Shown here: positions 2,472-32,566 of the stretch, piece by piece
Position numbering within the stretch: position 1 is the first letter of the stretch
Layout of the letters: every line of letters begins with the position of its first letter
Assembly: GCA_021648625.1 (NCBI GenBank)
Contig: JAKISK010000010.1
Span: 1 to 35,082, forward strand
DNA length: 35,082 nucleotides
Origin: Thiomicrorhabdus sp.
GTDB taxonomy: Bacteria > Pseudomonadota > Gammaproteobacteria > Thiomicrospirales > Thiomicrospiraceae
Reading direction: 5' to 3'
The notes under the pieces: model-generated
Databases searched by the model: none
What the model was told of the DNA's origin: nothing
The model's input: the letters and a program-made list of their open reading frames with translations, nothing else
Program-made: the position numbers and the translations under genes

Positions 2472-3065
2472 TTAAGACGATTCAAGCGTGTTTATATTTT
2501 GAAACGCTTGAGGCTGGTCTGAAAAGTCGACACGGGTATGAGGGTTCTCTTGAATCCAACGCGAGACGCTTAAATGAGACTTCTCTAATGCCCGCTTTAG
2601 ATTCAATGCCATGCTACGGTGCATAAGCAAATACAGAGGCTGCACTCGTTGCCCGTCATAAGCAACGACCAGTGGCGCAGGATCAATGGAATAACCTTGG
2701 ATCAATCGTTCCATTAAATCGATGGGCAAACTTGGATTATCGCATGGCACAAATACAATCCAATCAAGTGCAACCCACTTCCAAGCCGCTTGCATCCCAG
2801 CAAGCGGCCCTAAAAAGCCTTGATATTCGTCTGGAAACAGCGGTAGATCGTAGGTTTTATAGGCCAAATCCTCCGAGTTTACATTCAATAAAATGGGGAG
2901 TTCTTTCTTAGGTAAACACTGCAACACCCAATGCAACAACGGCTTACCTTGGTGTGGCAGCAGCGCTTTTTGACGCGCACCCACTCGCTTTCCTTGCCCT
3001 CCCGCTAAAACCACCACTGAAATATTCGAAAAACAGGGGGGGGGTATTTTTTTAAGCTCACTCAT
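2472..3065 (-). CDS. mobA: Molybdenum cofactor guanylyltransferase
   Basis: MobA transfers GMP from GTP to molybdopterin to make the guanine dinucleotide form of the molybdenum cofactor used by DMSO-reductase-type enzymes. The nucleotide-binding loop VVVLAGGQGKRVGARQK is at residues ~17-33 and the metal/active-site motif VPCDNPSLP follows mid-protein; the length (~197 aa) is normal. The loop carries RVGARQK where many homologues have RMGGxxK. ATG at 3063-3065 was chosen over the GTG two codons earlier because a purine-rich GGATAAAGGGGG lies just before it. It starts 18 bp after the kinase stop, so the two are probably co-transcribed. Residues 8-10 are Pro-Pro-Pro encoded by a C9 run, the same arrangement as in hisI, placed just before the conserved domain. 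Confidence 0.88.
   Translation of the reverse strand: MSELKKIPPPCFSNISVVVLAGGQGKRVGARQKALLPHQGKPLLHWVLQCLPKKELPILLNVNSEDLAYKTYDLPLFPDEYQGFLGPLAGMQAAWKWVALDWIVFVPCDNPSLPIDLMERLIQGYSIDPAPLVVAYDGQRVQPLYLLMHRSMALNLKRALEKSHLSVSRWIQENPHTRVDFSDQPQAFQNINTLESS
3036..3044 (+). repeat. G9 tract of the dispersed G-run motif (in mobA N-terminus)
   Basis: Nine G followed by TATTTTTTT on the + strand; read as C9 (Pro codons) just after the mobA start. Confidence 0.85.
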
Positions 3066-9136: not shown

Positions 9137-10310
9137 AGGCCAAAATTCGCTTCTTAACTTGATAATCCACCCCCAATAAAAGCTCTCGCACAACCATCGT
9201 GGCATAACTCCCTGCACGCAAGGTAAACGACAACTTTAATACGGGATTCTCTTGCCACAATTCACTCCCTGTTAGCGGTGTAAATAACGGCGTTAACACG
9301 TCCACCTCCTCTAAACTACCATTTGAGGCTTCTAGCCACTGCCATGTTAACGCTTGAGGCAACACGCGCAATGCTCTGCGTGCCTGTTGCACCCCATACT
9401 GATCTAACCCCTGAACCCAGTCTAAAAATGGCTCTACAACCTGCTCTTCAATACTTAATGCCACCGCCTTCGTCGGCAACTCTCCACAACCATACAGAGC
9501 CCCTGTAGGGTGCAAATCACCACTGGCAATGCGCGCTAACAACTCCGCTGTGCCATCTTCGACAAACCACTTGTTTGATCCTTCTAACTGCAATACATCG
9601 CCATCAAGCAGCTGATTCCAACTGCCATCTTCAACTCGATGGCTCAACAACACATTAAATAGCCAAGACCGAATGGAAGAGAGGTAGAGGCTTTTTTGAT
9701 TACGTTTTACCTTTGGCAATTCACCTGCCAGTAATTTAATGCCCTGCTTGATATTGCGCCCATGTAAACCAAACCGTTGTTCACCAAAATAATTTGGCAC
9801 GCCTGTTGTTTGAATCGCTTGCAAGCGGTTTTGCAATATTTCAATTATATTTTTATCCCCCCCCCTTTTTTCGACTCTCTTAATATCACGAATAATTAAG
9901 GTAAACCGATTACCTGACAAGCCGCCTTTTTGCAGCTTTCGCTGATGACGAACGGTCTTTAGAATCGTGATGTTCTTAACCTTAAAACCTTCAAGACTTG
10001 GGTTATTGCGTTTAGGAAGATGAAGGCTAAACCACTGGCGCGTGATTGCATGGCGATCTTTTTGCCCTGCCACACTCACTTTAGCCGGAGAAATTCCTGC
10101 CCACTTTGCCAACTGCTGTGCCACCCAATCGGTATTTTCACCCTTTTTTTCAACCCAACACCACAAGTGCTCTCCTTCACCACTTAACTCAAAGGCAATT
10201 TTCTCTTCCACCATAAAGTCTTCGGGAAGCACTTTGTAAAGTCCTGATATCTCCGGCTTACTCCAAGCATAGTTTAAAGCGGTAACGTCTGCAGTTTGAA
10301 TGTCGTTCAT
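9135..10310 (-). CDS. truD: tRNA pseudouridine(13) synthase
   Basis: TruD isomerises uridine 13 of some tRNAs to pseudouridine. The catalytic motif VAGQKDRHAITRQW is at residues ~80-93 with D85 as the expected nucleophile (D80 in E. coli), and NYFGEQRFG mid-protein is the other family signature. At 391 residues it is about 40 longer than the E. coli enzyme. Part of the extra length lies in the loop around residues 140-160, where a G9 run encodes the Arg-Gly-Gly at 149-151. The ATG start is supported by AGGA about 7 bases upstream. A terminator separates it from the lipoprotein gene upstream, so it probably has its own promoter. Confidence 0.94.
   Translation of the reverse strand: MNDIQTADVTALNYAWSKPEISGLYKVLPEDFMVEEKIAFELSGEGEHLWCWVEKKGENTDWVAQQLAKWAGISPAKVSVAGQKDRHAITRQWFSLHLPKRNNPSLEGFKVKNITILKTVRHQRKLQKGGLSGNRFTLIIRDIKRVEKRGGDKNIIEILQNRLQAIQTTGVPNYFGEQRFGLHGRNIKQGIKLLAGELPKVKRNQKSLYLSSIRSWLFNVLLSHRVEDGSWNQLLDGDVLQLEGSNKWFVEDGTAELLARIASGDLHPTGALYGCGELPTKAVALSIEEQVVEPFLDWVQGLDQYGVQQARRALRVLPQALTWQWLEASNGSLEEVDVLTPLFTPLTGSELWQENPVLKLSFTLRAGSYATMVVRELLLGVDYQVKKRILA
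9857..9865 (-). repeat. G9 tract of the dispersed G-run motif (in truD)
   Basis: Nine G preceded by A6 and followed by ATAAAAATAT on the minus strand, read in frame as Arg-Gly-Gly-Asp. Confidence 0.85.
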
Positions 10311-10868: not shown

Positions 10869-11819
10869 CTAGCTATTTTGCTGAATACCCGATACCTGCC
10901 AACTGCCGTCATCATTGGCCAAACGACGAATATGCCAAACTTCATTAAAGGCGTGCGCGCCTTCTGAAGCGTCTTCTTCAATAAAGCCAGTGAAACGAAT
11001 GCTGACCACAAAATAGTCACCATCCACAGCCATGTCGGCAATTTCAGCGTCCAGCGTATCGACAACGGTGTGGTTTTCGCCAGCCATCACACCTTGCATC
11101 TCTTGCTTAATCGCTTCAAACAACTCTGGCGAACAATAGGATTCGACTTCCGATAAATCGGCACTGTCCCATGCTTTTTGCAAGGTCACAAAATGCCCTT
11201 TAGCCCCTTCCACAAACTGCTCGGCATTAAACCAAGCGGGGGCTTCATTAAGATGCACCGCGTCTTCACTGACCGCGCCGCCTAAGTTGGAACCAAAAAT
11301 AGACTGACCCGATTTTGGATCATAGTCTTGCACGGTTTCACGTGAAGCAATGTTCTGTTTTTGAACCGGCTCAGGCTGATCGTTCATGGCTTCATGTTGC
11401 GTTTGATAAGCGGGTTGCGCTGTATTTTCAGCGCGAGAACGCCCCGCAAAATGTCTAAAGAGTTTAAACAGAACAAAGGCCAGTAAGGCAAACAGGAGAA
11501 TATCCATAATTTGAATGCCTTCAAAACCACCGCCCATAAACATCGCGGCTAATAAACCACCCGCGGCCAAACCACCTAATATACCCATCATGCCTGAACG
11601 TGATTTAGCGCCCGCGGCTGCCCCAGCGGCGGCTGGAGCCGCTTTTGGTGCGGCTTGCTGCTTAGACGACTTATCAAAGGACTTTGAAGGAACGGATTTA
11701 GAGTACCCAAAACTTTTACCCCCCCCAAAACGCTTAGCTTCCGCCGCTTGTGAAATGGTAAATAACGTAAAAAATGCCACTAAAAATAGGGCAAAGGATG
11801 GTTTAAAAACACTCAACAC
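10869..11819 (-). CDS. Tim44-like domain membrane protein
   Basis: A cleavable-looking signal (residues ~5-27, ending QAAEA) is followed by a Gly/Ser/Lys and Ala/Pro-rich linker, a Gly/Met-rich hydrophobic patch (~75-98), a membrane helix (~104-120, MDILLFALLAFVLFKLF), another low-complexity linker, and a C-terminal Tim44/Tim44-like fold (~190-316, from EQFVEGAKGHFVTLQKAW). Bacterial proteins of this layout are common but their role is unsettled; the fold resembles the membrane-associated domain of mitochondrial Tim44. Start is GTG at 11817-11819 with GGAG 8 bases upstream. It overlaps regulatory sequence with the downstream lipoprotein gene. A G8 run encodes Gly-Gly-Gly right after the signal peptide (KRFGGGKSFG). 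Confidence 0.85.
   Translation of the reverse strand: MLSVFKPSFALFLVAFFTLFTISQAAEAKRFGGGKSFGYSKSVPSKSFDKSSKQQAAPKAAPAAAGAAAGAKSRSGMMGILGGLAAGGLLAAMFMGGGFEGIQIMDILLFALLAFVLFKLFRHFAGRSRAENTAQPAYQTQHEAMNDQPEPVQKQNIASRETVQDYDPKSGQSIFGSNLGGAVSEDAVHLNEAPAWFNAEQFVEGAKGHFVTLQKAWDSADLSEVESYCSPELFEAIKQEMQGVMAGENHTVVDTLDAEIADMAVDGDYFVVSIRFTGFIEEDASEGAHAFNEVWHIRRLANDDGSWQVSGIQQNS
11719..11726 (-). repeat. G8 tract of the dispersed G-run motif (in the Tim44-domain gene)
   Basis: Eight G followed by TAAAAGTTTT on the minus strand, read as Gly-Gly-Gly. Confidence 0.85.
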
Positions 11820-11897
11820 AATATATTCTCCAAATAATAAATAACATAATTTTAAGGCATTGTACCTTTTTTAGAGCAAAAACATAAATAGTTTAGT

Positions 11898-11944
11898 AAA
11901 AAAAGGGGGGGAGAAAAATTAGTCGTTAAATTTTCTCCCCCCCC
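11898..11944 (-). terminator. Intrinsic terminator built from an inverted pair of G-run motifs
   Basis: On the minus strand a G8 run with AGAAAATTT (11937-11944 and beyond) is followed after a ~6-base loop by its complement ending in C7 (11905-11911), then a T7 run. The stem is about 17 bp. It lies 13 bp past the stop of the methyltransferase gene, which it should terminate. Both arms match the dispersed G-run motif found elsewhere in this window. Confidence 0.9.
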
Positions 11945-11957
11945 TATTCCAACGCCC

Positions 11958-12539
11958 TTACAGTTTCACCGCTCGTGAAATGGTGTAGTCTTTGCCTTGT
12001 TTTACTTTTTCATAATTGCCAAATACCTCTATGAAGTTGCGCTTCATATACTGACGCAAGCCATTAATGGTCACCACCACAAACTGCCCGCCGGGTTTCA
12101 GTTGACGATGCACATCATGCAACATAATACTCAACATCTCTTTGCCCACTTTGGCGGGTACATTAGACACTACCGTTGAAAATTGAACCTCTTTAGGCAC
12201 TGCGCTTAATCCATTCGAAAGATAGGCTTTGGCATGAGGCAGATTATTTTTTTGCGCATTTTTATTGGCGTAATCCACCGCCACAAAATCTTTATCCACC
12301 ATATGCACCTCCCCTTTGGGTGCATTGGCGGCAATGGCCAAGCCTAACGGACCATAACCACAACCAATGTCCAACGCAACTTCATCCTCTTCAATGGTTA
12401 AGTACTTTAAAAACAGCGCGGTGCCCGAATCAATTTCACGCGGGCTAAACACCCCCCATGTAGTAGCAAAGGTAAGGGGTACGCCCATCAACTCGGTTTG
12501 AATCTGTAAATCTTTTTTAAGTTCGTCAATTGTGGCCAC
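11958..12539 (-). CDS. Class I SAM-dependent methyltransferase, RsmC/RlmG-like ('MTS' type)
   Basis: The S-adenosylmethionine-binding motif I is VALDIGCGYGPLGLAIA (~residues 54-70), motif II ends in MVDKD, and motif IV reads STVVSNVPAKVGKEM. RsmC-type base methyltransferases normally carry NPP at motif IV; here it is NVP, which keeps the Asn and final Pro and may still place an exocyclic amine. At 193 residues it is a single-domain protein, unlike the two-domain RsmC and RlmG. The substrate is likely RNA but is not shown by the sequence. The start is GTG at 12537-12539 with AGGA upstream; no ATG is suitable. It is divergent from rep, with a strong terminator downstream. Confidence 0.82.
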   Translation of the reverse strand: MATIDELKKDLQIQTELMGVPLTFATTWGVFSPREIDSGTALFLKYLTIEEDEVALDIGCGYGPLGLAIAANAPKGEVHMVDKDFVAVDYANKNAQKNNLPHAKAYLSNGLSAVPKEVQFSTVVSNVPAKVGKEMLSIMLHDVHRQLKPGGQFVVVTINGLRQYMKRNFIEVFGNYEKVKQGKDYTISRAVKL

Positions 12540-32557: not shown

Positions 32558-32566
32558 GGGGGGGGG
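32558..32566 (+). repeat. G9 tract of the dispersed G-run motif (intergenic)
   Basis: Nine G followed by TAAAATCC, in a purine-rich stretch between argS and the repeat lipoprotein gene. Confidence 0.85.

Follow-up and report, generated by a model that had tools for sequence, protein, structure and literature searches.

Our analysis suggests that the hairpin at positions 11898-11944 of a 35,082-nucleotide stretch of Thiomicrorhabdus sp. DNA, which we call the window, is an intrinsic terminator built from a dispersed G-run motif and a second, inverted copy of it, and that the motif itself is kept for a reason at the level of DNA, most likely uptake or recombination. We give this combined reading a probability of roughly 55%. 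In the proposed scheme, the two copies would allow a G-C stem followed by seven U to fold in the nascent RNA, and the hairpin would bring about Rho-independent termination of the methyltransferase gene. Another cause, acting on DNA and common to hundreds of unpaired copies, would maintain the motif in the genome, most probably preferential uptake or recombination of motif-bearing DNA as with the USS of Haemophilus and the DUS of Neisseria; two of these copies would secondarily have come to serve as a hairpin. That uptake drives the motif, an argument from analogy, is less certain than termination.

The hairpin and its surroundings

Read on the minus strand from 11944 to 11898, the sequence consists of G8-AGAAAATTT, a 7-nt spacer, AATTTTTCT-C7 and T7. 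The first motif copy, G8-AGAAAATTT (G8AGAAAATTT; 11928-11944, minus strand), is an exact match and makes up the 5' arm of the RNA hairpin. The second, inverted copy, G7-AGAAAAATT (G7AGAAAAATT), lies on the plus strand at 11905-11920, its complement supplying the minus-strand 3' arm that ends in C7. The spacer between them (11921-11927, minus strand) contains the 5-nt loop, and the T7 tract (11898-11904, minus strand) follows immediately 3' of the 3' arm as the U tract of the candidate terminator. The initial annotation had the arms matching the motif base for base. Its coordinates, G8 arm, C7, T7 and inverted copies stand, but the two arm sequences differ at one position (AGAAAATTT versus AGAAAAATT), giving a mismatch in the stem. 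Both variants are common (15 and 6 of 176 runs of at least 7), and the 17-mer of the first copy has 24 exact copies in the genome. The evidence is good that inverted copies of a dispersed motif make up the hairpin.

The predicted RNA fold has 14 bp, one mismatch, 3 bp and a 5-nt loop, at -26.9 kcal/mol. None of 200 dinucleotide shuffles matched this energy (z = -4.9), nor did any of 200 when the flanks were included (z = -4.0). The hairpin stands 13 nt past the stop codon of a methyltransferase small domain (MTS) gene (11958-12539, minus strand; Pfam PF05175, E 1.5e-34). Thus the features of an intrinsic terminator are present, namely a stable GC stem-loop, a directly adjoining U tract and a position after a stop codon, and the minus-strand hairpin is likely to act as the terminator of this gene. 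Of the possible readings of the hairpin, termination is the best, because its position, its stability, the T tract, the excess of pairs between convergent genes and the retention of the hairpin in relatives (both described below) all agree. The hairpin resembles Rho-independent terminators of the TransTermHP type in its GC stem, T tract and post-stop position, but differs from them in that its 14 + 3 bp arms are set by a dispersed motif and its T tract is not conserved in the clade loci. The site was absent from the output of a mechanical consensus terminator scan whose rule was a loop of 3-8 nt, and an Rfam search of six sources gave no family at gathering threshold.

The methyltransferase has its nearest named relatives in Thiomicrorhabdus metagenome-assembled genomes (MAGs), with 91-94% protein identity at five loci from four assemblies. 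One MAG, WFNQ01, contributes two different copies of the locus (L045 and L048, on G001:C16 and C38), which suggests mixed strains or a duplicated region. A G-run hairpin occurs at the orthologous site in three of the five loci (L044, L045 and L048, the latter two thus from one assembly), with differing loops and run lengths; C-run lengths across orthologues at the site are C7, C11 and C8, and the L044 hairpin has an extra outer ATGACAT/ATGTCAT stem. At the same site L046 has an unrelated hairpin of -19.0 kcal/mol, equalled by 3 of 200 shuffles, and L047 only a decayed copy, equalled by 40 of 200. Of these six sequences only the window has the T7 tract, which is not conserved in L044, L045 or L048. 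Ten motif-free loci, at 190 bases each, show no G-run hairpin. The genome G017 stands outside this comparison, its methyltransferase gene being only a 23-residue fragment match. A consensus fold of four sequences keeps the stem; it shows a single two-sided change, its covariation term is slightly unfavourable, and it therefore gives no proof of selection on the RNA.

The next gene downstream on the same strand encodes a Tim44-like domain protein (10869-11819, minus strand; PF04280, E 2.2e-18). Between it and the hairpin lies a box read by eye, GGTACAATGCCTTAA (11852-11866, minus strand), which is possibly a promoter -10 region. The window, L044, L045, L046 and L048 contain GGTACAATGCC, L047 carries GGTTACAATGCC instead, and TACAATGCC, upstream of the Tim44-like gene, is common to the window and all five loci L044-L048. 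The Tim44-like gene itself holds a single G8 run (11719-11726, minus strand) in the codons TTT GGG GGG GGT AAA for residues FGGGK. At the same codons its orthologues have a G run of 8-9 in L045, L046 and L048 and of 6 in L047; L044 has the same residues, yet no G run of at least 6. Neither do L050, L051 and L098, the motif-free loci in which we saw the orthologous protein, have such a run in this gene; L050 and L051 keep RFGGG. Other single G runs of 9-10 with AT-rich 3' sides occur in the window at 967-976, 3036-3044, 9857-9865 (within a TruD-like gene) and 32558-32566.

The motif in the genome, singly and in pairs

The single motif is approximately A-G7-10-WRAAAWTT, directional and present in both orientations, in and between genes. 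A sample of 811,754 bases of the genome (41 stretches, 42%) contains 341 G or C runs of at least 7, or 0.42 per kb. There are 596 runs of 5, 153 of 6, 103 of 7, 106 of 8, 76 of 9 and 38 of 10; since the decay from 5 to 6 predicts a steep fall that is absent from 6 to 8, runs of at least 7 are over-represented. Runs of A and T decay smoothly with length. In the first 418,553 bases, A precedes 0.78 of the 176 runs of at least 7, and the tail [AT][AG]AAA[AT]TT follows such runs but not runs of 4 or 5. A strict form of the motif has 115 matches in the genome (52 forward, 63 reverse), against 3 (1 and 2) for the reversed pattern, where one place may count twice owing to the variable gap. Runs of at least 6 are denser between genes than within them (1.40 versus 0.48 per kb). 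However, of the 341 longer runs 280 have no partner, and 201 of these fall inside called genes. Termination cannot explain the motif, because most copies are unpaired and many are inside genes.

The window and forty stretches beyond it make up this sample. The stretches from contigs C1-C26 and C28 were picked in numerical order, and those of C27, C29, C32, C60, C63, C70, C75, C92, C93 and C96 were chosen after motif matches, so that densities may be slightly high; the stretches of the related genome G012 were likewise chosen after motif matches, and those of G003, G014 and G011 were taken blind. Motif and pair counts over whole genomes are free of this bias. The assembly (GCA_021648625.1, with the window on contig JAKISK010000010.1) has 1,923,344 bases in 96 contigs and is 79.6% complete. 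Genes were called by our own open reading frame (ORF) and codon scoring (669 genes, 86% coding, over the 811,754 bases), and some "coding" pairs may sit in false ORFs. An earlier calling (281 genes, 77% coding, over 418,553 bases) was replaced by this better one; a very strong convergent bias of all intergenic runs (24 convergent, 2 divergent) appeared with the earlier calling only, and we dropped it. With the second calling, single runs are mildly depleted in divergent regions (0.53 versus 0.73-0.78 per kb).

How do so many copies come to lie within genes? Codon usage shows that they are built by synonymous choice. In the genome's ORFs, GGG-GGG encodes 161 of 1059 Gly-Gly pairs against 45.7 expected (3.5-fold), and CCC-CCC encodes 109 of 408 Pro-Pro pairs against 33.4 expected (3.3-fold). 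Stretches of other motif genomes show 22 GGG-GGG (8.6 expected) and 7 CCC-CCC (3.2 expected), and motif-free relatives show 3 (5.2 expected) and none (1.9 expected). The runs are also retained. Over 77,024 columns aligned to other motif genomes, runs of at least 7 are kept in 16 of 30 run-by-partner comparisons, covering 17 distinct runs, whereas 8-mers outside runs are identical in 9.1% of 5698 GC-rich cases and in 15.8% of all. Alignments below 400 columns were dropped here, and L044 was left out since it lies on the same contig as L122; with both included the figure is 18 of 34. Synonymous construction together with retention implies that something acts on the DNA sequence itself.

The window contains no close pair besides the hairpin, which the initial annotation regarded as a single case; this holds for the window only. 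Genome-wide, at spacings of 6-30 nt, there are 52 pairs in the order G...C and 17 in the order C...G. The annotation would have taken a lack of other inverted pairs in the genome as refuting its reading; such pairs do exist, so that it is not refuted on this point, and each of five other motif-bearing genomes has 11-24 of the G...C kind. Within 30 nt, the 811,754 bases contain 27 G...C, 7 C...G, no GG and 1 CC pairs; beyond 30 nt the order bias is absent. Random placement at matched coding and intergenic density (300 simulations) gives about 4 of each kind, with a G...C mean of 4.0 and a maximum of 10, the simulations counting a wider range (8-53 nt start to start, runs of at least 6). Since 27 are observed against a simulated maximum of 10, chance is excluded for the pairs as a class. 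Their spacings are 8-13 nt in 9 of the 27, 17-30 nt in 17 and 1 nt in one. Of the 20 intergenic G...C pairs that were classed, eight have convergent genes on either side, an arrangement that accounts for 17.8% of intergenic bases (p = 0.016), and one has divergent genes (p = 0.076). A G...C pair lies no more than 150 nt from 24 gene ends, and at 8 of these at least 5 of the 8 bases past the stem are T. With tails this weak at many pairs, not all of them need be efficient terminators.

The genome contains other repeats and elements as well. In L017:13577-15634 (G000:C9), four copies of a block of about 60 nt, all in the same direction and each ending just before a G run, separate small cassettes of ParE/Phd-like ORFs, MazEF-like ORFs and a membrane ORF (names given by eye). 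The block looks like a cassette boundary element other than attC. An integron integrase scores above the NCBIfam cut-off at L028:929-1879 (G000:C27:929-1879), with G-run pairs flanking its gene on both sides (L028:290-327 and 2361-2395). Near it, at about L028:100-197, we saw by eye a palindrome with CTAAC...GTTAG ends, which looks like attC. The idea that the G-run hairpins are themselves integron attC sites was rejected, a different attC-like palindrome sitting near the integrase. MITE-like elements have outward-facing TCTATCTGGGGATTAGGG ends about 130 bp apart (e.g. L102:18158-18286 and L015:10672-10800), and their 10-mer TCTATCTGGG occurs at least 36 times among the matches listed in 812 kb. 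The G012 stretches L120-L124 have another dispersed inverted repeat, AGACCTTTGCACG...CGTGCAAAGGTCT, among their top 10-mers, with 14 matches of AGACCTTTGC in 99.5 kb; a similar palindrome stands 3' of the integrase gene at about L028:1919-1955.

Relatives and known uptake sequences

The strict form of the motif is found in six of 32 genomes of the genus (21-115 matches each) and has no match in the other 26; a shorter exact form has no match in 26 genomes of other genera. Among 14 named genomes, GGGGGGGWRAAA has 143-236 matches in four (reversed control 31-66) and 0-1 in ten (control 0-2), though the two counts overlap and are not independent, as G058, G059, G060 and G061 appear to be the same as G012, G001, G023 and G029. 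The named genomes with the motif are all MAGs. We infer that the six motif genomes form one clade. In the five besides our own, G...C and C...G pairs number 24:17, 19:10, 24:10, 11:6 and 17:23, so that the G...C order is favoured in five of six and reversed in G017 (17:23). The 26 motif-free genomes of the genus have 0-1 G...C pairs each.

Terminators of the kind found in Neisseria and Haemophilus were what the initial annotation had invoked, and passages of PMC1852404 do describe an order bias and tail-to-tail enrichment of pairs for the uptake sequences of Neisseria and the Pasteurellaceae. For inverted USS pairs of H. influenzae, within the spacing limit that the paper uses, they give +- over -+ as 50:25, and for DUS pairs of N. 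meningitidis Z2491 226:5 in favour of +-. The predominance of G...C pairs, the rarity of same-strand pairs and the tail-to-tail enrichment agree with this comparison, and the reversed order in G017 departs from it. The passages explain the order bias by an A-rich 5' flank turning into a T tail. We did not reproduce the strand-specific tail pattern given there: among 5 reverse and 7 forward tail-to-head pairs, the five reverse ones have tails opposite to expectation (A-tail 3.4, T-tail 4.4).

The motif resembles the USS of Haemophilus influenzae and other Pasteurellaceae in having a GC-rich core with an AT-rich 3' side, in its many copies in both orientations, in and between genes, in its close inverted pairs with a +- excess (52:17 here), and in the two groups of pair spacings (about 8 and 19-22 nt for USS in passages of PMC1852404, 8-13 and 17-30 nt here). 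It differs from the USS in that its core is a G run of 7-10 rather than AAGTGCGGT, and in having one AT-rich segment, no second being apparent in the 25 bases examined. With the DUS of the Neisseriaceae it shares inverted pairs near gene ends, the +- order bias and confinement to a clade; DUS dialects are confined to subclades according to parts of PMC1852404 and PMC12616744. The sequence is unrelated to DUS, whose motif is continuous and at most about 13 nt long (PMC12616744, in part), and the homopolymer core is unlike those of both DUS and USS. The receptor for known uptake sequences, as parts of PMC12616744 have it, is ComP in Neisseria and unidentified in Pasteurellaceae, for which PpdA/ComN are proposed. 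Thus over-represented copies, nearly equal orientations, order-biased inverted pairs and clade restriction, all genomic features of uptake sequences, are present, and we call the motif uptake-sequence-like rather than an uptake sequence; that it serves as one is plausible but unproven. The idea of an uptake sequence, already raised in the initial annotation, has the genomic pattern on its side, and this likeness is one of genomic analogy. Among the open-licence PMC papers that our searches listed, titles and abstract openings mention no G-run uptake sequence and no uptake sequence in Thiomicrorhabdus.

Competence genes are present in the genus but do not appear to track the motif. At E <= 0.001, ComEC is found in 5 of the 6 motif genomes and 23 of the 26 motif-free ones, ComEA in 3 of 6 (one above the family cut-off) and 25 of 26, several assemblies being incomplete, and DprA in all 6 and all 26, which makes 28, 28 and 32 of the 32 genomes of the genus. 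Our own genome (79.6% complete) gives no match to ComEC or ComEA, and G012 (93% complete) none to ComEA.

Alternative explanations and significance

The main rival also has the hairpin terminating transcription, but would have the motif serve another function in DNA, as a Chi-like recombination hotspot or a site for a nucleoid or segregation protein. Over-representation, directionality, synonymous construction and clade restriction fit it equally well, and so do the less frequent matches to ComEA in motif genomes. In its favour, too, single runs are unevenly oriented from one stretch to another (chi2 75.1, about 40 df, p 0.0006; the contigs are too short for replichores), and runs within genes favour the coding strand, 125 to 76. 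However, this last bias can be explained by the excess of Gly-Gly over Pro-Pro pairs, 1059 to 408, and in intergenic tandem regions the bias is opposite, with 14 single runs on the same strand and 32 on the opposite one, which a replichore-skewed Chi or KOPS would not give. Close inverted pairs are, to our knowledge, not expected of Chi. We judge this rival unlikely, at about the odds of drawing one named suit from a pack of cards.

Two further explanations are each improbable. In the first, the pair would belong to a mobile, REP/MITE-like family of palindromic repeats rather than be two assembled motifs. It draws on a pair subfamily with a common GGATT/AATCC loop, and on the block of about 60 nt before the G run: this has 12 profile matches in 811,754 bases (two weak, and 9 being the seeds themselves), in 10 of the 12 the following run is paired, and BLAST gives 10 matches at E <= 1e-3 in our own genome and none in the 31 others, so that among 32 genomes the block is found in this one only. 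In several motif genomes, pairs with a common TTGGATT loop are closer alike than two independent copies should be (e.g. L020:19463-19505, G029:C70:7283-7317 and G001:C262:33109-33145). Yet the window pair has no block match and no GGATT in its spacer, single motifs inside genes are made by synonymous codons and not by insertion, and arms and loop vary among the clade loci while a G-run hairpin stays in L044, L045 and L048. Although REP/REPIN and MITE repeats are likewise dispersed and palindromic when paired, they are unlike the present case of 280 unpaired runs in 341, 201 of them in genes, and synonymous-codon construction.

In the second, to which we attach an equally small chance, G runs would grow in this clade by a mutational process such as slippage or biased repair, with pairs and terminators as by-products. 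The homopolymer core and the differing run lengths of orthologues (C7, C11, C8) fit such growth. But the flanks are specific and directional (115 versus 3), with an AT tail after runs of at least 7 and not after those of 4-5; slippage gives no reason to expect an order bias in inverted pairs within 30 nt; and the numbers of A and T runs fall off smoothly with length. Lastly, any intrinsic terminator has a GC hairpin and a T tract, but an ordinary terminator with G-rich arms, like other runs only by chance, is contradicted by the exact 17-mer in one arm with its 24 copies, by the excess and order bias of pairs and by the hairpin's recurrence at three of five orthologous clade sites, and is very hard to credit.

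We thus return to a terminator made from two copies of a motif that is most likely kept for uptake or recombination. An uptake bias would jointly explain the copy number, directionality, synonymous construction, retention and patchy occurrence of the motif, and its paired terminators. Detailed knowledge of self-specific DNA uptake comes from two families, whose motifs are unrelated. We tentatively suggest, at slightly below even odds and by analogy with those families, that this Thiomicrorhabdus group has evolved its own mark for recognition of self DNA, with a G-homopolymer core and an AT tail, a mark that would form a new sequence class of uptake sequence outside the Pasteurellaceae and Neisseriaceae, would have been gained or lost inside a single genus and would have its inverted pairs reused as terminators. 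If so, it would be an independent case of an uptake sequence, present in six and absent from 26 genomes of one genus, and would open to study the origin of such a mark, the factor that reads it and the question whether terminators regularly come with it. Gene exchange among marine sulfur oxidisers could then also be followed by a marker that needs no culture.
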